From NCBI GenBank assembly GCA_902623215.1, contig CACNSS010000005.1:1-64000 (forward strand): a stretch of DNA of 64,000 nt, written 5' to 3'. The translations under genes were made by a program, and so were the position numbers. The first letter of the stretch is position 1, and each line of letters starts with the position of its first letter. Shown here piece after piece: positions 8,682 through 28,669 of this stretch. Source of the stretch: an uncultured Pelagibacteraceae bacterium. Its GTDB lineage: Bacteria > Pseudomonadota > Alphaproteobacteria > Pelagibacterales > Pelagibacteraceae. Below the pieces are notes generated by a model. That model made no database searches. It was not told where the DNA came from and saw only the letters and a list, made by a program, of their open reading frames with translations.

Positions 8682-8685
8682 CTAA

Positions 8686-9804: not shown

Positions 9805-9813
9805 TAACGGAAT

Positions 9814-11230: not shown

Positions 11231-11247
11231 CACAACTTAAAGTTGTG
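11231..11247. promoter_or_regulatory. Perfect 17-bp palindrome in divergent promoter region (operator candidate)
   Basis: The sequence CACAACTTAAAGTTGTG is an 8-1-8 perfect inverted repeat. It is centred in the 174-bp gap between the minus-strand aminotransferase operon (start 11160) and the plus-strand binding-protein gene (start 11335). The position and symmetry fit a dimeric repressor or activator coordinating the two operons. No regulator gene lies beside them; the protein is unknown. The tauA-like start is preceded by an AGAGG ribosome binding site. Confidence 0.5.
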
Positions 11248-11334
11248 TAACTATAATGATCATTTTTTTGTTTTACATATAGGTCAAATTAATCTTAAAA
11301 TTGGAACATATAAATAAACAAAGAAGAGGCATAA

Positions 11335-12276: not shown

Positions 12277-12297
12277 TTTTAAGGTAATTAAAATTTA

Positions 12298-12338
12298 AAT
12301 AGGCGCCAATTTTTTATTAAATTGGTGCCTATTTTTTT
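12298..12338 (+). terminator. Rho-independent terminator or attenuator between binding-protein and ATPase genes
   Basis: The arms AATAGGCGCCAATTT (12298-12312) and AAATTGGTGCCTATT (12319-12333) form a stem of about 15 pairs including one G-T, with a short T-rich loop, followed by a run of seven T at 12332-12338. This is a classic intrinsic terminator. It lies inside the transport operon, so partial readthrough would keep the binding protein above the ATPase and permease. Confidence 0.85.
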
Positions 12339-12366
12339 ACTATAAATTCTAATATAAAGTGAACAG

Positions 12367-16096: not shown

Positions 16097-16097
16097 C

Positions 16098-17009
16098 ATG
16101 CTTTCCAATAAAGAAATCATTTGTCCTGATAACTTGCTCAATGTTGCTCATAAAAAGAAAGGTGTTAAAGCAGGGATTGTTAATGCTGGAAAACCTTTGC
16201 CTATGCAGTCGGTGCAAGATGCTGTTAAAGAAAATCTAATTGAGCCAATTTTTATTGGTGATGAAAAAGAAATTAATAAGTGCGCACAAGATTTAAAATG
16301 GGATATCTCAAATTATGAGATAATCCATGTGCCTGTTGAAAATAATACAGCAATGATTGCTGCAAAATTGGCAAGTGAACAAAAGATCAAAATTATTGTT
16401 AAAGGCCATATTCATACTGACGTTTTAATGAAAGAAGTCTTGAAAAGAGAATATAACTTGCTCGGAAAAACCAGATTGAGTCATATTTGGCATATGACTT
16501 TAGGAAAAGAAGATAAGCCTTTAATAATTACTGATGGAGCATTGAATGTTCTGCCTAATGTAAAAACAAAATTACATATTCTTAAAAATGTTATTAATTT
16601 TTCAAACAGAATTGGTATTGAAAAACCTAAAGTCGCAATATTATCTGCCACTGAAGAAGTTTTAGATAGTGTTCCAAGTTCTAAAGAAGCTGAAGAATTA
16701 ACCAATTTAGCTAAAAAGGAAAATTTAAATGCCGATGTTTTTGGTCCGCTTGCATTTGATAATAGTATCTCAAAAAAGTCTGCCGCTATCAAAGGAATAC
16801 AAAATAGTGTAGCTGGTATGGCTGATGTATTGCTAGTCCCAAGTGTTGAGACAGGAAATGGACTTGTAAAAATGCTAATATACTTTTGTGGAGCGTGCGC
16901 GGCAGGTGTAGTTGTTGGAGGTAAAGTTCCAGTAGTAATAACCAGTCGTTCTGACGATGCTCCCGCAAGATTAGCATCCATTGCTGCTGCCGTCGTTGCT
17001 TTAGATTAA
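16098..17009 (+). CDS. Phosphate acetyl/butyryltransferase family protein
   Basis: A 303-residue protein of the PTA_PTB fold (single domain, without the N-terminal part of long Pta proteins). Typical elements are KGHIHTDVLMKEVL (about 97-110), the nearby RLSHIWHM and DGALNVLPN, VAILSATEEV (about 180-189) and the C-terminal GNGLVKMLIYFCGACAAGVVVGGKVPVVITSRSDDA. It should convert acetyl phosphate and CoA to acetyl-CoA. In taurine and isethionate degraders a Pta of this kind works after Xsc, which makes acetyl phosphate from sulfoacetaldehyde. Its place in this operon supports a sulfonate pathway, though no xsc is in the window. It starts two bases after the previous stop. Confidence 0.78.
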   Translation: MLSNKEIICPDNLLNVAHKKKGVKAGIVNAGKPLPMQSVQDAVKENLIEPIFIGDEKEINKCAQDLKWDISNYEIIHVPVENNTAMIAAKLASEQKIKIIVKGHIHTDVLMKEVLKREYNLLGKTRLSHIWHMTLGKEDKPLIITDGALNVLPNVKTKLHILKNVINFSNRIGIEKPKVAILSATEEVLDSVPSSKEAEELTNLAKKENLNADVFGPLAFDNSISKKSAAIKGIQNSVAGMADVLLVPSVETGNGLVKMLIYFCGACAAGVVVGGKVPVVITSRSDDAPARLASIAAAVVALD

Positions 17010-17070
17010 TTGTTTGATTGCAATAAAATTGAAATTGTCTTAAATAATCCAACTATAGTAAACAAATAAT

Positions 17071-18357
17071 ATGGCTATTACGTATCTAAAAAAATCTCCA
17101 AAAACATCATCAACAGATGACAATAAGACAACAGGAATAGTTCAAAATTTATTAAAAGACATTGAAACAACAAAAGAACAAGGTTGTATTGATTTAACAA
17201 AAAAGTTTGACAAGTACGATGGGGAAATAATTGTTTCAAAAGAAAGAATTGAAGAAATTAAAAAAACTTTAGATCGAAAAACTAAAGATGATATCCAATT
17301 TTCTTTTGATCGAGTAAGAAAATTTGCTGAAGCTCAACTCAAAAATTATGGACAAGACTTTGAGGTTGAATTGTCCGATGGTTTGTATGCAGGTCAAAAA
17401 TTAGTCCCGGTTAATACTGCTGGTTGTTACATACCGGGTGGAAGATACGCTCATATCGCTTCTGCTGTTATGAGTGTTACTACAGCTAAAGTTGCCGGTG
17501 TTAAAAATATAATTGCATGTAGCCCTCCAAAAGAAAATGTTGGTGCTCACCCTGCTATTGTCTACACTGCTGATCTCTGTGGAGCAGATGTAATACTGAA
17601 CTTAGGTGGTGTTCCAGCGATTGCTGCGATGACTAATGGATTATTTAAAAACCCTCCAGCAGACATCATTGTTGGTCCGGGAAACCAGTTTGTAGCTGAA
17701 GCGAAAAGAATTTTATATGGCAAAGTGGGTATAGATTTATTTGCAGGTCCAACTGAAATTGGAATAATTGCTGATGCAAAAGCTGATCCAGAGATAGTTG
17801 CTGTTGACTTAGTAGGTCAAGCAGAACATGGTTATAATTCTCCATGTTGGTTATACACAACAAGTAAAGAGTTAGCTGAGAAAGTGTTAAAAAGAGTTCC
17901 AGAATTAATTTCAGAATTACCCGAAATTCCTAGAAAAAGTGCAGAAGCAGCTTGGAGAGATTATGGTGAGGTAATTCTTTGCGATACTGATGAAGAAATT
18001 GTTAAGATTAGTGATGAATACGCTCCAGAACATTTAGAAGTTCAAACAGAAAATTTAAAGTGGTTTTATGAACGATTAACAAATTATGGATCGTTATTTG
18101 TAGGTGAAGAAACTACAGTTGCCTATGGAGATAAATGTTCAGGTACAAATCATATTTTACCAACTAAAGGAGCTGGTAAATATACTGGTGGTTTATTTGT
18201 TGGTAAATTTATTAAAACTTTAAGTTTTCAAAGAATGACAAAAGAATCTACCGAATTAGTTGGTGCTGCTGCAGCAAGAATATCAAGATATGAGGGAATG
18301 GAAGCTCATGCCAGAACTGGTGATGTAAGATTAAAAAAATATGGATATTCTAATTAA
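17071..18357 (+). CDS. Histidinol dehydrogenase-family oxidoreductase, HpsN (sulfopropanediol dehydrogenase)-like
   Basis: A 428-residue zinc/NAD dehydrogenase of the HisD superfamily. The zinc-ligand regions are present: GQAEHG (Gln, His), AYGDK (Asp), EAHARTGD (His). The catalytic EYAPEHLEVQT and NAD segment GPGNQFVAEAKR are also present. The context ERLTNYGSLFVG-ETTVAYGDK and TGGLFVGKFIKTLSFQR differs from biosynthetic HisD and resembles HpsN-type paralogues, which oxidise dihydroxypropanesulfonate to sulfolactate. Adjacency to a TauABC transporter and an Ldh2/ComC-like gene fits that. A true HisD with relaxed context cannot be excluded; no his genes are adjacent. It is last in the plus-strand operon, and its 3' end overlaps the convergent LysE gene by 8 bp. 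Confidence 0.72.
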   Translation: MAITYLKKSPKTSSTDDNKTTGIVQNLLKDIETTKEQGCIDLTKKFDKYDGEIIVSKERIEEIKKTLDRKTKDDIQFSFDRVRKFAEAQLKNYGQDFEVELSDGLYAGQKLVPVNTAGCYIPGGRYAHIASAVMSVTTAKVAGVKNIIACSPPKENVGAHPAIVYTADLCGADVILNLGGVPAIAAMTNGLFKNPPADIIVGPGNQFVAEAKRILYGKVGIDLFAGPTEIGIIADAKADPEIVAVDLVGQAEHGYNSPCWLYTTSKELAEKVLKRVPELISELPEIPRKSAEAAWRDYGEVILCDTDEEIVKISDEYAPEHLEVQTENLKWFYERLTNYGSLFVGEETTVAYGDKCSGTNHILPTKGAGKYTGGLFVGKFIKTLSFQRMTKESTELVGAAAARISRYEGMEAHARTGDVRLKKYGYSN

Positions 18358-18958
18358 TAGTTTCCATTATAACAAAAATTGTAAGTAGACTCATAAAACT
18401 AATAATAAAAATATTTATTGTTTTCCACACTTTTAAACTTTGAGCATATTGCGATAAATATTTAGATAAATAACCAATAGTAAAAAAGAATAGCAAGGAT
18501 GCTATTGAAGCTCCAGTTCCAAATAATATTTTTTGATTTAAAATAAAGCTTTTAGAAAAATTTCCTAAAAAAAATACAGTATCAGAGTAAACATGTGGAT
18601 TTAAATAAGTAAAACCAAGTGTTTTTATGAAAACATTTAATTTTGAGATTTTAGGAATTGTATCATTAAAACTTACTATTGAATTTAAGGATTTTAGTTT
18701 TGAATATATAAAATGAATTAAAAAAATAATTAACAAAATATTAAAGATTAACTCTACTGTTGCAGTAAAGTATTGTGTAAAATAATGGAAAAGAAATATT
18801 CCTAAAAATATTAAAATAAAATCAGATATAGAACAAATAAAACAAACTAAAAAGATATGTTGTTTTTTTAGACCTTGTTCTATGACAAAAACATTTTGAG
18901 CACCAATAGCTAATATAAGACTTAACCCTGTAAAAAAACCTAATAAGGCAAATTCCAT
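18350..18958 (-). CDS. LysE/ArgO-family amino acid exporter
   Basis: A 202-residue inner-membrane protein with about six helices. It has the LysE signature GLSLILAIGAQNVFVIEQGLK at residues 9-29 and FTYLNPHVYSDTVFFLG (about 115-131), both characteristic of the ArgO/LysE branch that exports basic amino acids. The family role is relief of excess intracellular Arg/Lys; the substrate here is not certain. It stands alone, convergent with the HpsN-like gene by an 8-bp overlap. Confidence 0.85.
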   Translation of the reverse strand: MEFALLGFFTGLSLILAIGAQNVFVIEQGLKKQHIFLVCFICSISDFILIFLGIFLFHYFTQYFTATVELIFNILLIIFLIHFIYSKLKSLNSIVSFNDTIPKISKLNVFIKTLGFTYLNPHVYSDTVFFLGNFSKSFILNQKILFGTGASIASLLFFFTIGYLSKYLSQYAQSLKVWKTINIFIISFMSLLTIFVIMETIN

Positions 18959-19017
18959 AATATAGATATTTGAATGTTCTGAACTTACTTTAAATCTTTA
19001 GAAAATAAAAATGATTA

Positions 19018-19479
19018 TCAAGTTGCAGGGATAAATAGTAAACACAACCCATTATTACAAAATCTTTTACCGGTTGAGCTTGGGCCATCGTCAAAAACGT
19101 GTCCATGATGGACTCCACACTTTGCACAATGATACTCGATCCTTTTCATACCAAATGAATAATCTACTTTTGTTTTAAAAGCCCCTGGTAAAGCTTCACT
19201 AAATGACGGCCAACCAGTGCCGCTATCGAATTTAGCCTCTGAGGAAAATAATTTGTTTCCACAATTCGCACAATGATAAAAGCCTTTTCTTTTCTCTTGT
19301 AGAAGTTCGCTGGTAAATGGTCTTTCAGTGCCCTCATTAAACATAATTTCTTTTTGTTTACTGGTAAGGTTCTGATTTATTATTTTTTTTGTCTCTGAAA
19401 GTACCAACTTATATGGATACAGAATCAATGACGCAAAAGATAAACCAATAATTTTTAATAAATTTCTTCTGTAAGTCAT
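19018..19479 (-). CDS. msrB: Peptide-methionine (R)-S-oxide reductase, exported
   Basis: A 153-residue MsrB. The N-terminus is MTYRRNLLKIIGLSFASLIL, a basic start plus hydrophobic segment with a twin-arginine-like feel, indicating export to the periplasm. The domain shows two zinc CxxC pairs (CANC and CAKC), DSGTGWPSF, and GVHHGHVFDDGP. The catalytic Cys is in KRFCNNGLCLLFIP. It repairs methionine-R-sulfoxide in oxidised proteins; the N-terminal segment points to envelope proteins as targets. The VOC gene upstream is 28 bp away and may be co-transcribed. The second Cys in NNGLCL could act as resolving Cys, which is inference. Confidence 0.88.
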   Translation of the reverse strand: MTYRRNLLKIIGLSFASLILYPYKLVLSETKKIINQNLTSKQKEIMFNEGTERPFTSELLQEKRKGFYHCANCGNKLFSSEAKFDSGTGWPSFSEALPGAFKTKVDYSFGMKRIEYHCAKCGVHHGHVFDDGPSSTGKRFCNNGLCLLFIPAT

Positions 19480-19507
19480 TTCACACCTTGGTGTAATTTG
19501 ATTAAGA

Positions 19508-19918
19508 TTATTCAGGATTTGCTGTTAATGTTTTTATTTCCAAAATATTTTCGTTTGGATCTTTAACAAAAAATGTTTCTTGCTCGTACTTTGTGCCTTT
19601 AAATCTAAGATAAGGCTCATCATAGTATTTTGCCCCTTTATCTTTTAATCTTTGTTTCAAAGCATCAAAATCTTTTCTTGATAAATGAACACCGAAGTGA
19701 GGAACTGAGACATTACCCATATCAACATCGTGTCTTTCATTGCTAAGTTTGTGATCACTAGCATGAAGGGTTAATTCATTTCCCCAAAAATCTACATCAG
19801 CCCATTCTTTTTCAGAATTACTTAAGCTACATCCAAGAGTTTCACTATAAAATTTTTTAGCAGTTTCTAAATCACCACATGGTATAGCTAAATGAAAACA
19901 ATTAGTATTTTTGTACAT
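19508..19918 (-). CDS. VOC-superfamily (glyoxalase/dioxygenase-like) protein
   Basis: A 136-residue vicinal oxygen chelate protein. The paired beta-alpha-beta-beta-beta modules are visible: residues 8-60 (FHLAIPCGDLETAKKFYSET) and 70-130 (PHFGVHLSRKDFDALKQRL, then KDPNENILEIKTL). Possible metal ligands are His9, His74 and Glu at the ILEIK strand, consistent with an active metal site. Members include glyoxalase I and extradiol dioxygenases; the substrate cannot be predicted here. It is divergent from cysE and upstream of msrB on the same strand. Confidence 0.8.
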   Translation of the reverse strand: MYKNTNCFHLAIPCGDLETAKKFYSETLGCSLSNSEKEWADVDFWGNELTLHASDHKLSNERHDVDMGNVSVPHFGVHLSRKDFDALKQRLKDKGAKYYDEPYLRFKGTKYEQETFFVKDPNENILEIKTLTANPE

Positions 19919-19985
19919 AATAAATCCTTTAAATATCTTTTAAAATAACTATATAAACTAAATCTACTGACACGATAAATACAAC

Positions 19986-20555
19986 ATGAATGAATTTTTA
20001 CAATCTATAATCGACCGTGACCCTGCGGCAAAATCTAAATTAAGTTTAATATTAACTTATCCAGGAGTAAAAGCGATATTTTTTCACAGAATTGCAAATT
20101 TTTTTGCAATTGCAAAGTTTGATTTAGTAGCAAGAATTATTTCACAATTATCAAGATTTTTCACAGGAATTGAAATTCATCCAAAGGCAAAAATTGGAAA
20201 AAATTTATTTATTGATCATGGTATGGGTGTAGTCATTGGCGAAACATCTGAAATAAGCGATAACGTAACAATCTATCATAATGTTACTCTTGGAGGGACA
20301 TCTCCAAGCATTAATACAAATGAACAAAGGAATTCAAAAAGGCATCCTACCTTAGAAGAAAATGTAGTGGTAGGTTCAGGTGCTCAAATCCTAGGACCTG
20401 TTGTTATTGGAAAAAATTCTTTGATTGGTGCTAACGCAGTTGTAACCAAAGATGTTCCAGAAAAATCTATAATGGCTGGTAATCCTGCAAAAAAAATTGG
20501 GGATGCTACACGAGGATTTAAGCCTTACGCTGTTACTGATAATAAAGAAGATTAA
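19986..20555 (+). CDS. cysE: Serine O-acetyltransferase
   Basis: Converts L-serine and acetyl-CoA to O-acetylserine, the first step in cysteine synthesis. The 189-residue length matches the short EpsC/CysE type. A helical N-terminal domain is followed by left-handed beta-helix hexapeptides from about residue 60: [58 protein letters not shown]. The catalytic His is in IDHG, with a His also in YHNV. Its stop overlaps the ATG of cysK by one base (TAATG), so the two cysteine-synthesis enzymes are translationally coupled. Confidence 0.92.
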
Positions 20556-21556
20556 TGGTTCATATTAGAAATACATTTATTGATTCAATTGGTAATACTC
20601 CATTAATCAAACTTAAAGCTGCCTCTGAATTAACAGGATGTAACATTTATGGTAAAGCAGAATTTATGAATCCTGGCGGGTCTGTCAAAGATAGAGCTGC
20701 GCTCTCATTACTTAAAGACGCACAAGAAAAAAAATTAATTTCTAAAGGTGGTATTGTTGTTGAAGGTACTGCGGGTAATACCGGAATTGGATTAGGTTTG
20801 ATAGGGAATTCACTTGGTTATAAAACAATAATTGTAATGAATGATAATCAAACTCAAGAAAAAAAAGATACAATAAAAAATCTAGGGGCAGAATTAAGAT
20901 TAGTCCCTGCAAAGCCATATAAAGACGAAAATAATTTTGTTAAGATTGCTGGACGTCTAGCAGATGAGTTAAGACCAACTAATAATAATGGTGTTGTCTG
21001 GGCCAATCAATTCGATAATGTTGCTAATGCTAAAGGACATTATGAAGGAACAGGAAAGGAAATTTGGGAACAAACTGAAGGTAAAGTTGATGGTTTTGTT
21101 TGTTCATCTGGAACAGGTGGTACAATTTCTGGTGTAAGTAATGCTTTAAAAGAAAAGAATAAAAATGTTAAAATTTATCTTTCCGATCCTAAAGGATCAG
21201 CACTTTATAATTATATTAAGAACGGTGAATTAAAATCTGAAGGTGGATCAATTACTGAAGGGATTGGCTCAAGTAGAATAACAAAAAATTTTGAGAACGC
21301 AAAAATTGATGATGCATATTCCATTGACGATCACGAAGCATTGCCCATACTTTATGACCTAATTCAAAATGAAGGTCTAAGTTTAGGAACAAGTTGTGGA
21401 ATAAATATCGCTGGTGCAATTAGACTTGGAAAAGAACTTGGGCCAGGAAAAACAATCGTAACTATTCTTTGTGATAAATCAGATAAATACAACTCTAAGA
21501 TGTTTAATAAATCATTTTTAAAGGAAAAAAACTTACCTGTACCTAGCTGGTTATAA
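20555..21556 (+). CDS. cysK: Cysteine synthase A (O-acetylserine sulfhydrylase)
   Basis: A PLP enzyme of 333 residues that makes cysteine from O-acetylserine and sulfide. The PLP lysine lies in NPGGSVKDRAA (about 40-50). VEGTAGNTGIGLGL is the substrate loop and VCSSGTGGTISGVSNAL is the phosphate-binding glycine loop. The C-terminus carries LSLGTSCGINIAGA. It is coupled to cysE. Sulfite or sulfide from the nearby sulfonate cluster could feed it, which is only an inference from position. Confidence 0.92.
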   Translation: MVHIRNTFIDSIGNTPLIKLKAASELTGCNIYGKAEFMNPGGSVKDRAALSLLKDAQEKKLISKGGIVVEGTAGNTGIGLGLIGNSLGYKTIIVMNDNQTQEKKDTIKNLGAELRLVPAKPYKDENNFVKIAGRLADELRPTNNNGVVWANQFDNVANAKGHYEGTGKEIWEQTEGKVDGFVCSSGTGGTISGVSNALKEKNKNVKIYLSDPKGSALYNYIKNGELKSEGGSITEGIGSSRITKNFENAKIDDAYSIDDHEALPILYDLIQNEGLSLGTSCGINIAGAIRLGKELGPGKTIVTILCDKSDKYNSKMFNKSFLKEKNLPVPSWL

Positions 21557-21571
21557 TATCGCATATCTGGC

Positions 21572-21595
21572 ATGTAACAAAACAGTTACATTTTT
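21572..21595 (+). terminator. Short intrinsic terminator after cysEK
   Basis: ATGTAAC (21572-21578) pairs with GTTACAT (21585-21591) around an AAAACA loop, followed by T residues. The stem is weak but correctly placed 15 bp after the cysK stop, and it separates cysEK from the small-protein operon that begins at 21624. Confidence 0.55.
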
Positions 21596-21623
21596 AAATT
21601 AAAATAATTAACTTTGAGGTTCT

Positions 21624-21995
21624 ATGAAGAAAATAATTTTAATCTTGTCTTTTTTTGCTTTTACTTCTGCTTATGCAGATATGAGTAATGAAGATAAATC
21701 TAAAGCTTGGGATTGTGTTGGAATTTATATGGCCAACTATTTCCTGCCATCAGGTGAAAAATTTGAATACGGCATGAAAGAAAAATCTATTTCAACTGTA
21801 AAAGTTTTAAAAACATATGCTCTTGAAATAGGTATTCCAGAAAAAGATTGGGATGCTGGAGTAAACAAAGCTGTAGATAAACATTACGGTTCAAAATACG
21901 ACAAAGCTAAAACTGAAAAATGTCATACATTTGTTGAAGCTTTAGTTCCTAATGGAGCTGAAAGAGTTAAAAAAGTAGTTCAAACTTTGTATTAA
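21624..21995 (+). CDS. Small secreted protein, unknown function (first gene of small-protein operon)
   Basis: A 123-residue protein with a clear signal peptide (MKKIILILSFFAFTSAYA, cleavage near residue 18). The mature part is helical and charged and has two cysteines (in AWDCVGIY and EKCHTF) that could form a disulfide in the periplasm. I do not recognise a family. The start is preceded by GAGG. It opens a run of small same-strand genes spaced by only about 10-35 bp, and it shares its signal-peptide style with the 68-residue gene at 22317, so a periplasmic component of the same system is likely. Confidence 0.7.
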   Translation: MKKIILILSFFAFTSAYADMSNEDKSKAWDCVGIYMANYFLPSGEKFEYGMKEKSISTVKVLKTYALEIGIPEKDWDAGVNKAVDKHYGSKYDKAKTEKCHTFVEALVPNGAERVKKVVQTLY

Positions 21996-22016
21996 TTCAA
22001 AAAAAAGGAGAAAAAA

Positions 22017-22307
22017 ATGGAAAAAGAAATGTTAGTTCATCTTAAACTTAAAGAGGGTAAATTAGAAACTTTCATGGGTTGGATGCAATCAGATGAAGGA
22101 ATGGGTGTTAGAAAAAGTGTTGCCTATCCAGAAAAAACTGTTGGCGCTATGATACCAGATAAAAGTGGAATGTTATTTAAAGTGAATGTTCATAATGAAG
22201 CTGGAATGAAAGAATTTGTAACTGGGAATAATTCTACCGCGAAAGCTATTTACGCAGAATGTGTAGAGAGTGCTAAATTATATGAACTATCTGAAGTAAA
22301 TTTATAA
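22017..22307 (+). CDS. Small alpha/beta protein, possibly dimeric alpha-beta-barrel type
   Basis: A 96-residue cytoplasmic protein. The order is strand (EMLVHLKLKEG), helix (KLETFMGWMQ), strand, strand (SGMLFKVNVHN), helix (AGMKEFVTG) and a C-terminal helix/strand, which resembles the ferredoxin-like fold of ABM/DABB proteins; this is judged by pattern only. A very strong ribosome binding site (AAAAAAGGAGAAAAAA) precedes the ATG. It is the second gene in the small-protein operon. It shares the length and topology of the proteins at 22539, 22864 and 23690, so duplication followed by divergence is possible. Confidence 0.65.
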   Translation: MEKEMLVHLKLKEGKLETFMGWMQSDEGMGVRKSVAYPEKTVGAMIPDKSGMLFKVNVHNEAGMKEFVTGNNSTAKAIYAECVESAKLYELSEVNL

Positions 22308-22316
22308 GGAGTATAA

Positions 22317-22523
22317 ATGAAAAAAATAATATTAACACTTTGTTTGGTCTTATTTGTTAGCTCTGCATACGCAGGTTCATGTCCAATGTTGGCTAAAAAT
22401 ATTGATGAAAAAATTAAAAAAGCTCAAGAACTTAAAGATCAGGGTATGGATGCCCATAATAATGGTGACCATGCTAAATCTGAAAAATTTTTAAATGAAG
22501 CTCTTGCTCTTTTTAAAAGTTAA
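22317..22523 (+). CDS. Very small secreted protein with a helical mature part
   Basis: A 68-residue protein: signal peptide of about 19 residues ending SSAYAGS, then about 48 mature residues. The mature segment KIKKAQELKDQGMDAHNNGDHAKSEKFLNEALALF looks like one TPR-like helical hairpin. A single Cys follows the cleavage region (GSCPML). AAGGAG precedes the start by a good distance. Periplasmic location is supported by the signal; a role as a small chaperone or adaptor of the neighbouring proteins is a guess. It would be missed by annotators that discard proteins under 70 residues. Confidence 0.68.
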   Translation: MKKIILTLCLVLFVSSAYAGSCPMLAKNIDEKIKKAQELKDQGMDAHNNGDHAKSEKFLNEALALFKS

Positions 22524-22538
22524 ATAGAAAGGAAAAAA

Positions 22539-22829
22539 ATGAAAAACTATATAGTAACACACACTTTTAAGTCAAAAGAAGCAAAAGCTAAAATGATAGA
22601 AGTTACTGGTTCAATGTCTATGGAAGATATGACTAAAGCAATGACAAGTGATAGTGCAAAGTGCCAAATGAGCTGGAATACACCTGGAGATAATCTAACA
22701 ATGTATTGTTGGTGGAAAGGTACTGATCCAGATGCAATTAATAAACAGTTAGAGTCTATGAACGATTTCTTCGAACCTCATAAATTTGTTGAGTGTACAG
22801 ATGATGTTATAGATTTTAATGCTAAATAA
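22539..22829 (+). CDS. Small alpha/beta protein, unknown function
   Basis: A 96-residue protein with KNYIVTHTFKSKEAKAKMIEV at the start, a Met-rich helix (SMSMEDMTKAMTSD), then strands LTMYCWWKGTDPDAINKQLE and a C-terminal strand. The layout fits a compact ferredoxin-like fold that senses or binds a small molecule, similar to DUF3303/DABB-type proteins, although I cannot assign it firmly. AAAGGA precedes the ATG. It is in-line with the other small genes, 15 bp after the previous stop. Confidence 0.62.
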   Translation: MKNYIVTHTFKSKEAKAKMIEVTGSMSMEDMTKAMTSDSAKCQMSWNTPGDNLTMYCWWKGTDPDAINKQLESMNDFFEPHKFVECTDDVIDFNAK

Positions 22830-22863
22830 AAATGCCTAAATTTTTACCGAGTGAGGAAAAACA

Positions 22864-23172
22864 ATGAAGGTAATTTATACTAGAACGATGAGGGTAAAAG
22901 ATGATGGCCTAGTAAAAGCAATGGAAATAGGAAAAGGTTTAGCGGCAGTTAGAAAAAAACATTATCCTAACCATGATGTTTATTTTTCTTTTCAAATGGG
23001 TGGAGACCCAAGAACCATAAGGGAGACTTTAATTGGACCCATGTTTGAAGGTAATAATGACGCTGACGCTAACATGTCTGCAGATCCTGAATATATTAAA
23101 CTTTTAGAGCAATTAAAAGAAGTTGCAATAGAAGGTACTATTGAAGATGAGATTAGACCAATATTTAGTTAA
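22864..23172 (+). CDS. Small alpha/beta protein, unknown function
   Basis: A 102-residue protein beginning with a strand (MKVIYTRTMRVK), a helix with DGLVKAMEIGKGLAAVRKKHYP, a strand HDVYFSFQMGGDP, an acidic loop (GNNDADANMSADPEYIKLLEQLK) and a final EGTIEDEIRPIF. This again suggests a ferredoxin-like half-barrel like those of antibiotic-biosynthesis-monooxygenase relatives. There is no catalytic motif I can name. GTGAGGA lies upstream of the ATG. It stands between a soluble and a membrane gene of the same operon. Confidence 0.62.
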   Translation: MKVIYTRTMRVKDDGLVKAMEIGKGLAAVRKKHYPNHDVYFSFQMGGDPRTIRETLIGPMFEGNNDADANMSADPEYIKLLEQLKEVAIEGTIEDEIRPIFS

Positions 23173-23185
23173 AGGATTTTAATCA

Positions 23186-23602
23186 ATGTTAGAAAAATTT
23201 AATGGAATAATCTATTTAACTTTATTTATAATCCACTTTGCAGGTTTTGCTTACTATGGATTTAGGTGTGTGTTTCAAACGCAGTCTTTTTTAAATCAAT
23301 ATGGAATGCATGACACGGGCGCAGGTATTGTTAGATTTTTTGGTTCTATATTTTTTGGCTCGACTGCGATGGCTATTTACATAGGATTTATAAGACCAAA
23401 TGGTGTAGAAGCTACTTGGGGGTTTTTTAATCTTGTGTTTTTACAAAACCTATCAGCATTTATAGTTGGTTTTTATAGTACTAAGATAAATAAACTTGGA
23501 CATACCGACAAAACTTCTGATGAAGCAATTTACGCACCTTTATTTTTGACAATTTTAAGTGCTTTACTTTGTTACGGGTTAGCAGATAAAATCTACGTTT
23601 AA
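23186..23602 (+). CDS. Small four-helix membrane protein
   Basis: A 138-residue protein with about four hydrophobic segments (about 7-27, 46-65, 77-97 and 115-132). It has Phe/Tyr-rich helices (FAGFAYYGFRCVF) and polar loops with GMHDTGAGIVRFFGS. I do not recognise the family. It is the first membrane component of the small-protein operon, 13 bp after the previous gene, and could be the anchor or transporter partner of the soluble and secreted small proteins. No typical transporter motif is visible. Confidence 0.65.
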   Translation: MLEKFNGIIYLTLFIIHFAGFAYYGFRCVFQTQSFLNQYGMHDTGAGIVRFFGSIFFGSTAMAIYIGFIRPNGVEATWGFFNLVFLQNLSAFIVGFYSTKINKLGHTDKTSDEAIYAPLFLTILSALLCYGLADKIYV

Positions 23603-23618
23603 CATCAAAGGAGTGATA

Positions 23619-23690
23619 ATGATCGCAATGGAAGTCAGAAGTCAGCTATCGTTTGTAAGTTTAATAGAATGTGGTTTAAATGATCTTTAA
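23619..23690 (+). CDS. 23-codon short ORF coupled to the DUF1330 gene
   Basis: AAAGGAG at 23607-23613 is followed by ATG at 23619 and a 23-codon frame (MIAMEVRSQLSFVSL and on) that stops with TAA sharing one base with the ATG of the next gene (TAATG). The strong ribosome binding site and exact coupling are what support it. It may be a real microprotein, or a translated leader that delivers ribosomes to the DUF1330 gene, which otherwise has no own ribosome binding site. The composition is not distinctive, so the product itself is uncertain. Confidence 0.4.
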   Translation: MIAMEVRSQLSFVSLIECGLNDL

Positions 23691-23977
23691 TGCCAGGTTT
23701 TGTTATTTTTAATATAGAAATAAAAAAACCTGAAGAATATAAAGAATACGTTCAGAAGGTAACACCAATAGCTAAAAAATTTGGAGGTGAATATATTGTC
23801 AGAGGTGGTGAATCCAAAGTAATTGAAGGTGTTTGGACATATCCCAGAACAATTATTATTAAATTTCCAAGTTACGAAAAAGCTTTAGAGTGGTATAGTT
23901 CAGATGAGTATAAACCAATTAAAAAAATCCGTTTAGACAATTCAGTCAGTAATGGAATAATAATTAAAGGAGTTTAA
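23690..23977 (+). CDS. DUF1330 family protein
   Basis: A 95-residue protein with the DUF1330 pattern: VIFNIEIKKPEEYKEYVQKV, GGEYIVRGGESKVIEGVWTYPRTIIIKFPSYEKALEWYSSDEY and a C-terminal IIIKGV. The fold is a dimeric alpha-beta barrel. Its biochemical role is unknown in general. Its start shares a base with the preceding short ORF's stop. It is followed one base later by the NTF2-like gene, another small-molecule-binding fold. Confidence 0.85.
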   Translation: MPGFVIFNIEIKKPEEYKEYVQKVTPIAKKFGGEYIVRGGESKVIEGVWTYPRTIIIKFPSYEKALEWYSSDEYKPIKKIRLDNSVSNGIIIKGV

Positions 23978-23978
23978 A

Positions 23979-24299
23979 ATGTCGATATTAGAGAAATATA
24001 CGAATGCAATTAATAATAAAGATGAGTCAATTATGAATGAACTTTTGCATGATGACTTTAAATTCACAATGCATAAGTCAGGAAATACCATAGGTAAAAC
24101 TGATGTTATAAAATGGGCAATGAGTGGTGATATAAACCAAGATAAAGCAAGAGTAGTCTATGAAAATGATGAAGTTGGAGTTCACCATTCAATTGTTACA
24201 TTTAATGATGGGAATGTTGAAGCAGTAATGGCAGTTTATAAATACAAAGATGGAAAGATTATAAGTTTGGAGACTGGCGCTACTCCTATGTCAAAATAA
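23979..24299 (+). CDS. NTF2-like (SnoaL-type) protein
   Basis: A 106-residue protein with a cone-shaped NTF2-like layout: helices with YTNAINNKDESIMNELLHDDFKF, the GNTIGKTDVIKWAMSG segment, then long strands ending VEAVMAVYKYKDGKIISLETG. The last strand pattern, YKYKDGKIIxxE, is typical of SnoaL/NTF2-like proteins. Such domains bind or isomerise small hydrophobic molecules. AAAGGAG precedes the start codon. It is a member of the small-protein operon. Confidence 0.75.
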   Translation: MSILEKYTNAINNKDESIMNELLHDDFKFTMHKSGNTIGKTDVIKWAMSGDINQDKARVVYENDEVGVHHSIVTFNDGNVEAVMAVYKYKDGKIISLETGATPMSK

Positions 24300-24305
24300 A
24301 AGTAA

Positions 24306-24890
24306 ATGATTGACTTTTATTTCTCGATTGGAAGCACATATACTTATTTAGCAGTCACTAGAATACTTGATGTTGAAAAAAATCATCAAGTCAGTTTTAA
24401 TTGGAAACCTTTTAGCGTTCGGGTAATTATGAAAGAAATGAATAATATTCCATTTCCAAAGGATAAGCTTAATAAAGTAAATTACATGTGGAGAGATATT
24501 GAAAGACGGGCTGAGGGTTATGGTTTTTTTGCTAAAACTCCTGTGCCCTACCCACTATCTGAATTTGATTTAGCAAATCAAATTGCAATTCTTGGATTAG
24601 ATAAAAGTTGGGGTGTGGATTATGTGAGACTGACGTATAAGAAATGGTTTCAAGAGGGTAAAGAACCAGCGATAGAGCCAAGTATTTCTGAAGTATGTAA
24701 AGAATTAAAACTCAATAAGGATGAGATAATATCTGAAGCAAAAACAAAATTAATTGAAGATAAATACTTAGCCAACACAAATTCTGCAAGAGAAAATAAA
24801 ATCTTTGGTAGTCCCTCTTTTGTTGTTAAAAATGAAATATTTTGGGGTGATGATAGGATGGAAGATGCAATTAAATTTTTTAAAAAATGA
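24306..24890 (+). CDS. DsbA-like/GST-kappa family oxidoreductase (2-hydroxychromene-2-carboxylate isomerase type)
   Basis: A 194-residue protein. It begins IDFYFSIGSTYTYLAVTRI, the N-terminal strand and active loop of the GST-kappa/HCCA-isomerase group, where Ser replaces the DsbA Cys. Inserted helices follow, then KIFGSPSFVVKNEIFWGDDRMEDAIKFF with the cis-Pro typical of thioredoxin folds. Members use glutathione to isomerise or conjugate aromatic compounds. It is the largest enzyme in the small-protein operon and the best clue that the operon handles a reactive small molecule. Its 3' end overlaps the next gene by four bases (ATGA). Confidence 0.8.
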   Translation: MIDFYFSIGSTYTYLAVTRILDVEKNHQVSFNWKPFSVRVIMKEMNNIPFPKDKLNKVNYMWRDIERRAEGYGFFAKTPVPYPLSEFDLANQIAILGLDKSWGVDYVRLTYKKWFQEGKEPAIEPSISEVCKELKLNKDEIISEAKTKLIEDKYLANTNSARENKIFGSPSFVVKNEIFWGDDRMEDAIKFFKK

Positions 24891-25111
24891 TATTTTCAAA
24901 AAAATACTTTGATCTTATCTTTATCTTAATTATGGGCTTTGGCATGAGTTTGCTTATGACCCTTATTATTACTTATATTAATACTGGTATGGATAAAGAT
25001 TATATCTCCAGATTCCTAAAAGCTTGGATGATAAGTTTACCGATAGCAATCATAGCTGCTCTTATACTTGGCCCACCTATTAAAAAATTTGTAGATAAAA
25101 TAACTAAATAA
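24887..25111 (+). CDS. DUF2798 membrane protein
   Basis: A 74-residue protein with two helices. It carries the DUF2798 layout: GFGMSLLMTLIITYINTG in helix one and FLKAWMISLPIAIIAALILGPPIKKFVDKI in helix two. Its function is not known. The ATG overlaps the stop of the GST-kappa-like gene by four bases (ATGA), showing coupling. Such two-helix proteins may be scaffolds for larger membrane complexes. Confidence 0.82.
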   Translation: MIFSKKYFDLIFILIMGFGMSLLMTLIITYINTGMDKDYISRFLKAWMISLPIAIIAALILGPPIKKFVDKITK

Positions 25112-25125
25112 TTATATTTTAGAAT

Positions 25126-25461
25126 ATGAGTAATTTGTCAGGATATATATTTCTTCTATTGGCAATTATCTTAGGCATAACTTCGAATGGTTTTTTAAAA
25201 TCAACTAATGGATTTACGAATATTGGCCCAACAATTTTTTGTGTAATATCAATAGTTGCTTGTATTTTTTGTTTATCTAAAGCAATGAATATTATTCCAG
25301 TTGGTTTCACTTATGCAACTTATGGCGGATTAACTATTACTGCAGTTACATTATTTGGTGTATTTAAATATAATCAAATACCAAATCTTTATGGAATTAT
25401 AGGAATAATATTAATTATTATTGGTGTAATTTTACTCAATACACTTGGTAAGGCTACTTAG
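25126..25461 (+). CDS. Small multidrug resistance (SMR) fold protein lacking the conserved glutamate
   Basis: A 111-residue, four-helix protein. Ungapped alignment with EmrE over helix 1 is straightforward, from YIYL/YIFL to GFT/GFT. The essential EmrE Glu14 falls on Gly17 here, and the Trp63 region (AIWSGVG) reads ATYGGLT. The later helices (NIIPVGFTYA, LYGIIGIILIIIGVILLN) fit SMR. Loss of the proton/substrate-coupling acid makes classical drug/proton antiport unlikely. It may be a subunit of a heterodimer, a flippase-like protein or a scaffold. It lies 14 bp after DUF2798, and its 3' end overlaps the convergent hisN-like gene by 8 bp. Confidence 0.75.
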   Translation: MSNLSGYIFLLLAIILGITSNGFLKSTNGFTNIGPTIFCVISIVACIFCLSKAMNIIPVGFTYATYGGLTITAVTLFGVFKYNQIPNLYGIIGIILIIIGVILLNTLGKAT

Positions 25462-26260
25462 CCACGGGTTTTAATATTTTGACTATTCTTTTGTGAAGTT
25501 TTTTGTTTGGCGCACAAATAATGTTTCCTGCTTTTTTTGCATCCTCATTTTTCCATGTGGTAACTATTCCCTCGGCCGCTCTTATTATGGGAATTAGAGC
25601 ATGGATATCCCAAATTTTATTTCCACATTGAATTACAATATCTATTTTTCCCTCTGCAAAATGTGAATAACTTAGAGCATCAGCACACGGAAATTGCATT
25701 CGTTTTAATATTTGTGGTATTTTTTTTTGTTGGTTTAAAGATAAACTACCGTGAAATGCAGCCGACAATTTCATATTTTTGAAAGTTGATTTTTTATTCA
25801 CTTTTAGTCTTTTTTTATTTCCATTTTCACACACAAAAGCAGATTTATCTGTTTCGTTAAAATAATATTTTTTTAAAATTGGAAAATTAGCAAGACCTAA
25901 AATTGGTATTCCTTTGAAATTTAGTGAAATGAGGTTACTCCAAGTTGGGTTACCTATAACGAAAGACCTTGTGCCATCTATTGGGTCAATAACCCAGGAA
26001 AAATCACTTTTAGTTTTTTTATTTTTAACTTCTTCACCTATAATTTGATGAGTGGGAAATTTATTACTAATCTCTTTTCTTATAAATTTTTCAAAAGCTA
26101 TATCTGCGTTAGTAACAGGGTCATAACCTGTGCCCTTTAACTTATTTGAAACTTTAAATGGCTTGTTTAATTTTAAGAAATAAAATCTAGTAAGTTTATT
26201 TGCTAAATTGTTAAGAAATTTAGAGTATTTTTTATATTCTGAAGATTTTAATTTAATCAC
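25454..26260 (-). CDS. hisN: Inositol monophosphatase-family protein, HisN-like histidinol-phosphatase
   Basis: A 268-residue member of the FIG/IMPase superfamily. Metal and substrate motifs are DPVTNADIAFEKFIR (about 46-60), IIGEEV, WVIDPIDGTRSFVIGNPTWSNLISL (about 89-113) and the C-terminal IWDIHALIPIIRAAEGIVTTW. The extended WVIDPIDGTRSF is characteristic of the HisN branch (histidinol phosphate to histidinol), which replaces HisB-type phosphatase in alphaproteobacteria. The other his gene in the window is hisI at 38420. The true substrate could also be inositol phosphate or another sugar phosphate. Confidence 0.75.
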   Translation of the reverse strand: MIKLKSSEYKKYSKFLNNLANKLTRFYFLKLNKPFKVSNKLKGTGYDPVTNADIAFEKFIRKEISNKFPTHQIIGEEVKNKKTKSDFSWVIDPIDGTRSFVIGNPTWSNLISLNFKGIPILGLANFPILKKYYFNETDKSAFVCENGNKKRLKVNKKSTFKNMKLSAAFHGSLSLNQQKKIPQILKRMQFPCADALSYSHFAEGKIDIVIQCGNKIWDIHALIPIIRAAEGIVTTWKNEDAKKAGNIICAPNKKLHKRIVKILKPVAK

Positions 26261-26325
26261 AAGAGACTATTACAATTTAATTTGTATTGATTAAAGTAAA
26301 ATTTTAAATAATCATAAGAATCATT

Positions 26326-27426
26326 ATGAAAATTGAACTTTCAAATAATAAAGTTTTTTTTGAAAATCAAGGATCCAAAAAAGAAATACACCCATTCTGG
26401 TTGAGAGAAAGAGTGAACGGTGTAGATTTTGTTGATAAAGGTACCAAACAAAGATTATTTGATCCAACAACGCTCAATCAAAATATTGAAATAAATAAAG
26501 TTAATTTAACTGACAAATTTTTAGAGATTTCATTTAATGATGGAGTTGAAACAAAAATATCAATTCAAAGTATCTTTGAAGAATATTCTGATATTAATGA
26601 TATAAAATTTATTAAAAAAGCTAAATGGGACTCTTCTTTAAGAAATCCAAATAATTTTCAGTTCAGTGAAAATATATTTGAAGAAAAAATAATGTATGAA
26701 GCTTTAATAAGTTTCTATAAATATGGTTTCATTATTTTCAAAAAAGTGCCGACAGAAAACAATTTCTTAGTAAAATTTGCAAATTCTATAGGTAGTATAA
26801 GGAGAACAAATTTTGGTGAATTCTTTAATGTAAAATCAAAACCCAATCCTAATGATCTAGCTTATACATCTTTGCCTTTAGCACCTCATACTGATAATCC
26901 TTATAGAAATCCTGTTCCATGTATTCAAATATTACATTGCATTGAAAATGCAGTTGAGGGTGGACATTCTACTTTGGTAGATGGCTTTACAGTTACAGAG
27001 GAATTAAAAGAAAAATATCCTGAATATTATAAAATTTTAACTGAGGTGAAGGTAAAATACCAATTTATAGATAAGGATGTAATATTAGAGAATTGGGCTG
27101 AGATGATTGAATTAGATGAAAATAAGAATTTTAAACAAGTTAGATTTAGCCCAAGGTTAGATTTTGTTCCATTAATTGATAAAAACAAATTAGATGTTTA
27201 CTATAAGGCAAGAAATAAAATTTCTGAATTGTATAATTCGAGCAAATATAGAATTGAATTTAAACTTCTTCCAGGAGATCTATTAATGATGGATAATTAT
27301 CGACTTCTTCATGGAAGGACATCCTTTAATGCTAATGAGGGTAATAGATTTCTTCAAGGTTGTTATATAGATTATGATAGTACTGAAGGAAAAATTAAGC
27401 ATTTAAGAAGAAAATTTAATATATAA
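26326..27426 (+). CDS. 2-oxoglutarate/Fe(II) dioxygenase, gamma-butyrobetaine/trimethyllysine dioxygenase type
   Basis: A 366-residue enzyme. The N-terminal domain of about 90 residues (IHPFWLRERV) matches the small domain of gamma-butyrobetaine hydroxylases, and the catalytic TauD-like domain follows. The iron site is His188 and Asp190 in APHTDNPYRNP with a distal His near 329 (NYRLLHGRTSF). The Arg in the following segment (GNRFLQGCYIDYD) probably binds 2-oxoglutarate. Bacterial members hydroxylate gamma-butyrobetaine or related quaternary amines, fitting an organism that uses methylated amines, but the substrate is inferred. It starts 65 bp from the divergent hisN-like gene. Confidence 0.8.
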   Translation: MKIELSNNKVFFENQGSKKEIHPFWLRERVNGVDFVDKGTKQRLFDPTTLNQNIEINKVNLTDKFLEISFNDGVETKISIQSIFEEYSDINDIKFIKKAKWDSSLRNPNNFQFSENIFEEKIMYEALISFYKYGFIIFKKVPTENNFLVKFANSIGSIRRTNFGEFFNVKSKPNPNDLAYTSLPLAPHTDNPYRNPVPCIQILHCIENAVEGGHSTLVDGFTVTEELKEKYPEYYKILTEVKVKYQFIDKDVILENWAEMIELDENKNFKQVRFSPRLDFVPLIDKNKLDVYYKARNKISELYNSSKYRIEFKLLPGDLLMMDNYRLLHGRTSFNANEGNRFLQGCYIDYDSTEGKIKHLRRKFNI

Positions 27427-27427
27427 A

Positions 27428-27607
27428 TTATTTATTAAAACAATTATTCACTAATATTGCCATTAATATCCAAATGACAAAAGTTTCACCATGGGTGAAA
27501 GAATAATCCGCTCCAGCAAAACCAGCAACTATATTAATTGCATAAATAATTATGGTAGAGACCAATAAACTTAAGAATAATTTTACTATTCCATTAATAT
27601 ATTTCAC
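27428..27607 (-). CDS. Small two-helix membrane protein, GTG start
   Basis: A 59-codon minus-strand frame starts with GTG at 27607 (an in-frame stop lies four codons upstream, so no longer version exists) and stops at 27428, one base from the convergent dioxygenase stop. The product has two hydrophobic helices (about 6-30 and 43-56) joined by a loop AGADYSFTHGETF. The balanced composition, tight 3' junction and lack of other coding in the interval support it. The function is unknown. It occupies the left third of the 535-bp gap after the dioxygenase. Confidence 0.55.
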   Translation of the reverse strand: MKYINGIVKLFLSLLVSTIIIYAINIVAGFAGADYSFTHGETFVIWILMAILVNNCFNK

Positions 27608-27747
27608 ATTAAAACTTTAACTATTCTCAATATTTATGCAAATGAAAATTTTCTATTAATAAGTGAAATTATTTCAGATGCCGGAATATTATTAAATACC
27701 TAGGTTGTATTCAAGAAATATATTTTCAGAAAATTTAAATAAATTTA

Positions 27748-27776
27748 TTGATTACAACCTAATCAAAATTTAATCT
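27748..27776 (+). promoter_or_regulatory. Promoter for the structured RNA, overlapped by an inverted repeat
   Basis: TTGATT (27748-27753) and TAATCT (27771-27776) are spaced exactly 17 bp and place transcription start near 27783. A 9-bp perfect inverted repeat, TAGGTTGTA (27701-27709) and TACAACCTA (27753-27761), has its right arm inside this promoter. This suggests control by looping or by a bound regulator. Positions are by eye only. Confidence 0.4.
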
Positions 27777-27797
27777 TTAATTAAGGAGGTAGCTTTA

Positions 27798-27824
27798 ATG
27801 AATCAAACACCACCTGATACTTAG
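27798..27824 (+). CDS. 8-codon mini-ORF MNQTPPDT
   Basis: ATG at 27798 lies 8 bases after an ideal GGAGG, and the frame reads MNQTPPDT then TAG. The two consecutive prolines are a known ribosome-stalling context. It is supported only by the very good ribosome binding site and its place in a structured transcript; it may serve translation-dependent RNA folding rather than make a functional peptide. Confidence 0.3.
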   Translation: MNQTPPDT

Positions 27825-27901
27825 CTGGGTATTTTCATACTTCATAAAAACGTAAATAAAAAATATAAAGTCCATTCGGACTTAAATGCCAGAACGGCAA
27901 A

Positions 27902-27947
27902 TTAGGGGCTGCTCTTTTGGTTAATTGACTAAAGAGCAAACCCCTAA
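27902..27947 (+). terminator. Two-part stem-loop terminator
   Basis: TTAGGGG (27902-27908) pairs with CCCCTAA (27941-27947) and GCTCTTT (27911-27917) with AAAGAGC (27931-27937), with small internal bulges, followed by T-rich sequence. It ends the structured RNA and sits 15 bp from the stop of the convergent methyltransferase gene, so it probably serves both strands. Confidence 0.7.
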
Positions 27948-27961
27948 ATTATTTTCTTAAT

Positions 27962-28669
27962 TTATCTATTCAAAACTAGACAAATCAATTTATCTTGAAA
28001 AGATATTTGTTTTTTATACTTTTTTTTTATTTCATTTAAACCACTAGATATTAACTTATGGCTCATCCCCAACAACACCGATATATATTTACTCTTTACC
28101 ATTTCCATATATTTTTTCTTTGAAATTTTAACTTTGTAACTAAACCCTCTAACGAGTTTTCCTTTGAATGAATATGAAATTGATTTAATAATTTTCTTAT
28201 CTCTTATTAAGGCTTTTTTCAGTTTTTTTCTCATAATCGAAAATGTTGGAATTTCATTATTAATGGGGTCTAGAGTAAAAATAATAATTTTACCGTTTGG
28301 ATTTAGTAATGTCTTCGACAATTTAAGTATAGTCTTAATATCTTTAATTTTAAAAAGATGAATAGTTTGTTTTAATAAAATTAGATCAAATCTTTTTTTA
28401 TTCTTTTTTAAAAATTTAAGTGCATCAATTTTTTTAAAAATTATTCTTTTATCCCTATCTTTATGATTTTCTATATCTATACCTGTAGATTTTCTCTTTA
28501 AGCTTAACTTTGATGACAAGCTTCCTAGTATCTTACCCCTGCCACAACCAATATCTAAAATCTGACTGTGTTTACTTAATTTAACTTGTTTTAATAAAAA
28601 ATTATTAAAAGATTTAATATAAGACGGTGATGAAAGCCAAGTTTTGTTGTCCCAATTTTTTAATGACAC
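27962..28669 (-). CDS. Class I SAM-dependent methyltransferase
   Basis: A 235-residue protein. Motif I is ILDIGCGRGKILGSL (about 39-53), the acidic end of strand 2 lies in STGIDIENH, and motif IV-like FDLILLKQTIHLF is near 95-107. A LNPNGKIIIFTLDPI strand follows. The substrate is unknown. Its 5' end overlaps the DUF4396 gene by 10 bp, so it is the last gene in a unit with DUF4396 and a cupredoxin. The Lys-rich C-terminal half is typical of this genome and carries no extra domain I recognise. Confidence 0.78.
   Translation of the reverse strand: MSLKNWDNKTWLSSPSYIKSFNNFLLKQVKLSKHSQILDIGCGRGKILGSLSSKLSLKRKSTGIDIENHKDRDKRIIFKKIDALKFLKKNKKRFDLILLKQTIHLFKIKDIKTILKLSKTLLNPNGKIIIFTLDPINNEIPTFSIMRKKLKKALIRDKKIIKSISYSFKGKLVRGFSYKVKISKKKYMEMVKSKYISVLLGMSHKLISSGLNEIKKKYKKQISFQDKLICLVLNR

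Follow-up and report, generated by a model that had tools for sequence, protein, structure and literature searches.

The 64,000-nt stretch of DNA analysed here (the window) comes from an uncultured Pelagibacteraceae bacterium of the SAR11 lineage, and at 21624-25461, between cysK and a hisN-like gene, it holds an array of eleven small open reading frames (ORFs), o1 to o11. The array is an order-keeping, content-shuffling one with its own leader, spread over a large lineage. It is read here as a single transcription unit with a promoter of its own, whose genes can be exchanged one at a time and encode proteins that handle small molecules; because it is from folds that the chemical role is deduced, this reading is given roughly an even chance overall. 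Under it, the eleven genes would start at their own promoter/operator just behind cysK rather than form the tail of a cysEK operon, and about two dozen small-protein families would hold preferred positions (slots) behind that promoter. Each genome would carry a subset of its own, altered one gene at a time, most likely through homologous recombination between arrays and through loss. The products would handle small molecules largely independently of one another, as a panel comprising dimeric alpha+beta barrels, SnoaL/NTF2 and cupin pockets, a thioredoxin-fold protein resembling 2-hydroxychromene-2-carboxylate (HCCA) isomerase, periplasmic mini-proteins, membrane proteins and an SMR-fold protein, each of which might isomerise, oxidise, sequester or pass on a different reactive or poorly degradable seawater metabolite.

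Eleven ORFs, all on the + strand, lie where the initial annotation had counted about a dozen tiny same-strand genes, and their lengths span the 68 to 194 codons that it had given (123, 96, 68, 96, 102, 138, 95, 106, 194, 74 and 111 amino acids for o1 to o11). Nine of the ten intergenic gaps are overlaps or shorter than 35 bp, as had been described, but one measures 87 nt (21, 9, 15, 34, 13, 87, 1, 6, -4 and 14 nt in order). As for the strong ribosome binding sites (RBS) claimed for most genes, purine runs were clear by eye ahead of o1-o6 and o8, seven genes out of the eleven. The run is the longest in the window of same-strand genes of at most 200 amino acids, and none of 100,000 gene-order permutations reached eleven (maximum 9); therefore, a run of this length is not chance for this gene set. 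Tight packing alone says little in this genome, since the median of the other same-strand gaps in the window is 6 nt and that of the spacers in P. ubique is given as 3 nt (PMC5069961); it is the small gene size and the company of the genes that are unusual.

Conserved order and variable content

The array was compared across fetched loci (L numbers) from genomes and genera with G and g labels, small-protein families being numbered with o or c. The source genome (G000, 77.85% complete, array on contig C5) belongs to genus g1 and family f1. In most fetched g1 loci cysE and cysK stand to the left of the array, and the flanks recur while the content between cysK and hisN differs. Content was tallied for a pool of 23 small-protein families of our own definition in 76 closed loci, all of which have the hisN-like gene as their right border. 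Sample 1 holds 19 cysK-hisN-closed loci out of 32 stretches from an unselected g1 set, sample 2 holds 18 closed loci among 28 other g1 stretches picked partly for the presence and partly for the absence of o2, and sample 3 holds 39 closed loci among 80 single amplified genome (SAG) loci, which had been selected for o2 as the best of 557 that were confirmed. Two of the loci compared, L072 and L163, are identical DNA.

Distinct pool arrangements were seen in 19 of 19, 18 of 18 and 21 of 39 loci of samples 1, 2 and 3, with 18, 18 and 19 distinct gene sets. The initial annotation had staked its proposal on a gene order shared beyond this strain, and such an order was found: over the 54 distinct pool arrangements, the majority order was kept in 1663 of 1740 pair co-occurrences (95.6%), compared with a mean of 59.6% and a maximum of 62.5% in 500 shuffles of the arrangements. 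Including non-pool ORFs in the key gave the same picture. The consensus order runs approximately o1, c29, o3, c45, o2, c32, o4, o5, c64, o7/o6, o8, c35/c38, o9, o10, o11, with exceptions above one fifth for the pairs o6/o7, o5/o7, c29/o1, c29/o5, c32/o1, c32/o7, c15/o8 and o9/o10. Pool genes lie on the cysK strand in 132 of 140, 138 of 145 and 422 of 424 cases in the three samples.

Family frequencies can be read fairly from sample 1 only, where o11 is present in 17 of 19 loci, o8 and o10 in 13, o6 (counted in both orientations) and o1 in 12, o2 and o7 in 11, o4 in 7, o5 in 6 and o9 in 4. The cysK-hisN interval ranges from 1.8 to 10.5 kb in samples 1 and 2, and larger unrelated genes are also present in some loci. 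At the short end of content, the + run of locus L243, from a complete g1 genome (G090), consists of two SMR genes and one 69-aa gene without assignment. The median junction length is 12 nt over 992 junctions; with a shared strand, short gaps and conserved order, the array has the features of an operon and is probably transcribed as one transcript.

Leader element

Behind the cysK stop codon lies a conserved 36-nt dyad element (CRCATAnCwGnnnTGTAAyAAAACnnTTACATTTTT) followed by a TATAAT-like hexamer; in 11 of the 21 unique element instances the hexamer lies 9 nt downstream and has a single mismatch at most. In the window the element reads CGCATATCTG-GCA-TGTAACAAAACAGTTACA-TTTTT and, together with a -10-like hexamer TAAAAT at 21600-21605, occupies 21560-21605 on the + strand as a putative promoter/operator of the array. 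It was found in 77 of 99 cysK loci (some of which share a genome), where it precedes six different first genes (o1, o4, c32, c29, c81 and o2), and in none of ten loci in which a reversed o6 follows cysK. When 1.73 Mb, most of it the training set itself, was scanned with a weight matrix, 73 matches scored above 14 bits; 72 of them lie behind cysK and one lies in L160, 40 nt ahead of o2 and away from cysK. Sequence obtained later than the matrix (480,136 nt) contained nine further matches above 14 bits, eight behind cysK and one in L252, all of them ahead of the first gene of an array (that of L250 being untyped, and L255 coming from a genome already sampled). Because the L252 instance, between c55 and o4, stands before o4 and is parted from cysK by larger genes, the element is tied more strongly to the array.

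A reading of the element as the cysK terminator is not favoured, because no element was found behind cysK in L243 and L249, two loci with almost no array left, and because it stands ahead of arrays away from cysK in L160 and L252; given its weak hairpin, this reading is kept as a caveat. A consensus scan for terminators found none, the shuffles giving a mean of 2.3, and no Rfam riboswitch match was obtained for positions 18000-28000 at E 1. A search for a wider regulon gave no sign of one: the full 31-nt pattern was matched in 10 of 37 genomes and never more than once in any of them. When only the 18-nt dyad was sought and two mismatches were allowed, 11 genomes yielded 61 matches, but the reversed control yielded 48, which made this pattern unusable.

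Other leaders were noted by eye. Arrays of genus g7 have a related but shorter GCATACCTGTAATnAAA stretch ahead of o1, and the reversed-o6 loci carry a different leader, in several cases with TGCATA and TGTAACA pieces. In six of the loci (L044, L045, L048, L161, L176 and L178) the reversed o6 overlaps the cysK stop by about 4 nt. Genome G099 likewise has a reversed o6, which is followed there by the array o5 c83 c29 o1 o4 c64 o8 o9 o10. A 156-aa winged-helix-like protein, c89 (HTH_Crp_2, E 0.0017, below cut-off), is encoded upstream of the glyoxalase gene in L243, L161, L177 and L178. It lies near cysE in five tallied loci, all without the element, and none was seen near cysE in the window; c89 is possibly a regulator of the alternative leader.

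Predicted protein families and folds

The initial annotation had seen folds that bind or transform small molecules in this run, and many array members do have such folds. Structure models were made for o2 (22017-22307) and o5 (22864-23172), neither of which has a Pfam match above cut-off. For o2, the AlphaFold2 model (predicted local distance difference test score, pLDDT, 95.4) matched ABM, NIPSNAP, LsrG and olivetolic acid cyclase structures in a Foldseek search of the PDB, and that for o5 (pLDDT 87.8) matched the NIPSNAP entries 2ap6 and 1vqy with a TM-score of 0.76-0.77. With good confidence, both are predicted to be monomers of dimeric alpha+beta barrels with a beta-alpha-beta-beta-alpha-beta fold, their dimerisation likewise being predicted. 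A possible SCO4226-like ferredoxin-like fold is weakly indicated for o4 (22539-22829; PF14026, E 0.072, below cut-off), whose relative in L262 matches the same family at E 0.0011, also below cut-off; no solved relative of o4 was found.

The DUF1330, NTF2-like, DUF2798 and SMR-fold assignments of the initial annotation were all recovered: o7 (23690-23977) matches PF07045 at E 1.1e-30, with the PDB relatives 2fiu and 3lo3, which are without assigned function, o8 (23979-24299) is a SnoaL-like/NTF2-fold protein (SnoaL_2, PF12680, E 5.6e-7), and o10 (24887-25111) matches PF11391 at E 3.7e-21. The gene that had been called GST-kappa-like, o9 (24306-24890), falls in the DSBA family (PF01323, E 1.8e-23), and its nearest solved relative is the HCCA isomerase 2imd (E 5.9e-13). 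Residues 2-185 align with 2imd, and the early serine and the W-G-x-D-R-hydrophobic end are kept. In HCCA isomerase the early serine has a role in glutathione binding. By family and this serine, o9 is HCCA-isomerase-like, the isomerase activity itself being putative.

Signal-peptide-like starts were seen by eye in o1, o3, c29 and c81, whose N termini are shared in the profile comparison. The first of these (o1, 21624-21995) belongs to a lineage-restricted family with two cysteines that are invariant in the alignment; o3 (22317-22523) has an SCPM motif and is weakly TPR-like (TPR_2, E 0.011, below cut-off). By eye, o6 (23186-23602) is a four-helix membrane protein, DUF1361-like below cut-off. 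In PHROGs there were two weak matches (o1, E 0.0077; o4, E 0.0054). The 87-nt gap ahead of o7 holds a 23-codon ORF (23619-23690, + strand) with its own strong RBS-like run. This stretch is kept at full length and 84-100% in 11 loci, with only end matches elsewhere, and the ORF is possibly the leftover of a lost slot or a micro-gene. Pool members from other loci include, above cut-off, a Cupin_2 protein, a DUF3764 protein and another family of SnoaL type; matches below cut-off point to more cupin-like, DUF3764-like, GYD-like and ABM-like proteins.

The last gene of the array, o11 (25126-25461), encodes an SMR-fold protein, and two SMR copies are adjacent in many loci. In a residue-by-residue alignment with EmrE, all 107 array copies (84 distinct) have glycine at the central glutamate (E14); in all 107 the switch tyrosine (Y60) is kept, the second glycine of the G-x-G motif in the third transmembrane helix (G67) is threonine, cysteine or alanine, and W63 is replaced by tyrosine or phenylalanine. 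The accessible part of one account describes the central glutamate as conserved and essential in three of four SMR types and as often asparagine in the lipid types (PMC9574504). With glycine in its place in all the copies examined, o11, while SMR-fold, would by its sequence be no proton-coupled exporter.

Selection and gene-wise history

Median ratios of non-synonymous to synonymous substitution rates (dN/dS) are 0.05-0.21 for ten array families (all but o3) and 0.04-0.12 for five flanking genes, the pairs compared not being independent; the array genes are therefore maintained under purifying selection. Identities of the flanks co-vary between loci (rank correlations of 0.88 for hisN-BBOX and 0.70 for glyoxalase-cysE), but o5 and o6 are close to independent of them, with correlations with cysK of 0.06 and 0.18. 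Neighbouring array genes also correlate little (o5-o6, 0.29; o6-o7, 0.16), and two adjacent array genes of L041 differ widely in their identity to the window, 46% for o2 and 96% for o4. The simplest account, and the most likely one, is that content changes by homologous exchange anchored in adjacent genes, together with loss.

Array families at other sites

Within the family, 66 of 197 genomes, belonging to 8 of 14 genera, carry a match to the o2 profile, and all of these but G078 carry just one. The 80 SAG loci of the o2 selection divide into 50 behind cysK, 16 by an enoyl-CoA hydratase gene, 11 by a TRAP-hisD-ADH group and three of undecided site. In genus g7, o1, o7, o2, o6 and in some cases o4 are grouped together with ABM-like and GYD-like proteins (both below the Pfam cut-off), adjoining either the enoyl-CoA hydratase gene or the TRAP-hisD-ADH group. 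Locus L160 (g1 genome G081) carries an eight-gene array (o2 o4 o5 o1 o6 o8 o9 o10) away from cysK, and in genus g6 o2 stands alone, with o6 or with o8, in different surroundings.

In a set of 289 genomes of the class, o5 was found in one genome outside the family (G287), o4 in one (G293) and o6 in five others, and o1 had one weak partial match. Locus L229 of G287, from another family of the class, groups o2, the cupin c64, o5 and o8 near a transfer-messenger RNA (tmRNA) gene. In locus L262 of G293 (GC content 49%), one strand encodes a DUF6854 protein, c64, an unassigned small protein, a Cupin_7 protein and o4; the gene caller assigned some 0.36 kb ahead of o4 to a reverse ORF. Given the joint occurrences in g7, L229 and L262, the pool families are associated beyond the genus, if not in every case. 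Combined, these results agree with the operon-like unit that the initial annotation had described, being co-directional, with its order kept, its families recurring jointly at several sites and the element standing ahead of the first gene at most loci.

In L165 (g16), L171 (g5) and L229, o2 has a tmRNA gene (alpha_tmRNA, RF01849) no more than about 1.3 kb away. Such genes are a classic insertion neighbourhood. The only tRNA or tmRNA gene of the window is at 396-472, with none near the array.

Alternative explanations

Detoxification or modification of one reactive compound had initially been suggested, the genes acting in sequence on a single metabolite. The gathering of small-molecule folds in one run, the conserved order and the company of four pool families in L229 and of two in L262 would suit such a pathway. 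No fixed gene set exists, however: all 19 arrangements of sample 1 differ, o9, o5 and o4 are infrequent there, and the complete genome with L243 keeps just two SMR genes and the 69-aa gene. With no member constant in the closed loci, the single pathway was rejected as the principal explanation, because a fixed multi-step pathway would hardly tolerate optional members, and it is judged improbable. If the interval were instead a tolerant insertion site, unrelated small genes would pile up between cysK and hisN without joint function. Content that changes in nearly every genome, larger unrelated genes in an interval of up to 10.5 kb and the clustering of SAR11 rearrangements at operon boundaries (PMC2217521) all fit such a site. 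The single order and strand and the purifying selection do not, nor do the grouping of the same families at other sites and in other genera and a shared element that heads arrays with different first genes, in some cases away from cysK; a tolerant site is thus considered rather unlikely.

A regulated stress panel would place the genes under one signal acting through the dyad element, with proteins that buffer that stress, for example reactive carbonyl or oxidative stress, instead of each carrying out a reaction of its own. This would agree with the dyad and its hexamer, with a glyoxalase-family gene and a gene that is msrB-like by eye nearby, and with fold neighbours that include PA0709, a PDB entry titled as glyoxal-modified; yet the full-length element occurs at most once per genome without sign of a wider regulon, gene content varies and the regulator is putative, which leaves the stress panel unlikely. 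Variable islands often hold defence genes, so that an anti-phage or toxin-antitoxin type locus was also considered. The array folds are metabolic, however, PADLOC gave no match at 0.01 for the ten of the eleven proteins scanned (o1-o10), and viral contigs and phage records held no relative of o2 or o5, the two proteins searched, for which a viral origin was therefore set aside; a defence locus is very improbable.

Several observations weigh against the reading of the array as one unit of exchangeable small-molecule handlers. No homology between the alpha+beta families was seen with hhalign, where the only match above 30% outside signal peptides was o2-o7, at 60% over 33 columns and out of register. 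The DUF1330, SnoaL, SMR and DUF2798 families occur in other bacteria according to Pfam, and therefore the co-location may partly reflect a tolerant site. Relatives of o6 outside the family (L230-L234) have no pool neighbours. Some identities are coupled (o1-o2 and o1-o8, 0.70; o1-hisN, 0.68; o9-cysK, 0.85 over 30 loci), and merged paralogues may depress some of the identity correlations, with duplicates, of which the last copy was kept, blurring the values. No recognisable element was found in the arrays of the reversed-o6 loci, L249, L253 and L254, nor in those of g6, g9, L229 and L168. Finally, the element can fold as a hairpin that has a T run (35 nt, -6.0 kcal/mol, z -2.59; z -0.46 for the whole leader), and may therefore be a terminator or attenuator.

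The unit of exchangeable handlers may be part of something broader, namely a dedicated exchangeable enzyme panel common to SAR11 and some co-occurring streamlined alphaproteobacteria, in which one-domain small-molecule proteins, in ordered slots behind a promoter, are passed between cells one gene at a time. Each strain would then handle different seawater metabolites or toxins, and the glutamate-less, uncoupled SMR pair would be the membrane partner. This broader panel is doubtful, and held here as a tentative proposal. If true, this would mean that a minimal genome can keep its chemistry diverse in a new way, unlike both the integron and the classical island. The locus would then be a concrete place at which to measure strain-level chemical specialisation in single-cell genomes and metagenomes, and it would yield a handful of orphan proteins of defined fold for assay. 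SAR11 cells rank among the most numerous in the sea and their genomes among the smallest of free-living organisms, yet at most of these loci 2-6 kb go to tiny genes whose set changes with nearly every strain.

Neighbouring genes

The array is flanked on the left by cysE (19986-20555, + strand) and cysK (20555-21556, + strand; 74-100% identity between loci), both conserved and outside it. The right flank is the convergent hisN-like gene (25454-26260, - strand), also outside the array; its label comes from a match to the Inositol_P family (PF00459, E 6e-44), and a histidinol phosphatase identity is putative. Upstream of cysE, on the opposite strand at 19018-19918, are the msrB-like and glyoxalase-family genes, which are possibly linked to reactive-compound stress. 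Further upstream (6237-18357), the window encodes a large FAD/aminomethyltransferase-type protein and an alanine dehydrogenase-like protein (by eye), a class-III aminotransferase, an NMT1-type ABC transporter and Ldh_2, PTA-like and HisD-like proteins, a cluster that we take to resemble in kind the catabolism of organosulfonates (taurine or 2,3-dihydroxypropane-1-sulfonate, DHPS). A TRAP-HisD-ADH group also adjoins the array in part of genus g7.

Comparison with known systems

No published account recognised in the literature search describes this gene set, in line with the initial statement that no known pathway has it. Individual members can be compared with known proteins. With the SMR transporters (Gdx, Qac, MdtIJ and ArnEF), o11 shares the sequence family, a length of about 110 amino acids and the switch tyrosine, whereas the position of the central glutamate holds glycine in the array copies examined. 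Around o9, which aligns with the HCCA isomerase 2imd, no aromatic pathway genes were noticed in the stretches inspected, where no dedicated search was made for them. The predicted monomer fold of o2 and o5 is shared with ABM, NIPSNAP and LsrG proteins, but the two fit no named Pfam family.

Integron arrays likewise consist of small exchangeable genes in a row behind one promoter. The present array is unlike them in its conserved order and in having no recombination-site repeats at its junctions in the window, where neither a repeat family at the junctions nor tandem repeats were found. An integron cassette array was therefore rejected, with attC-type repeats not found and with a median junction, at 12 nt, too short to hold an attC site. 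No integrase gene was noticed in the array loci, at which no search aimed at integrases was made.

The array also resembles the hypervariable regions (HVR1-4) and flexible islands of SAR11, which likewise have variable content between conserved flanks, with homologous recombination proposed for the exchange (PMC2217521; PMC12421898). The passages on these regions place HVR1-4 at SAR11_0042-0054, 523-568, 1162-1173 and 1214-1221; their tables for HVR1, 3 and 4 name no cysK or SMR gene, HVR2 is described there only by category, and the cysK locus is unmapped to these numbers. In close relatives the content between cysK and hisN is variable and the flanks are conserved, so that in this respect the locus resembles a flexible island. 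It differs from the HVRs in that its order is kept, its content changes gene by gene, its genes are tiny and a leader element stands at its head.

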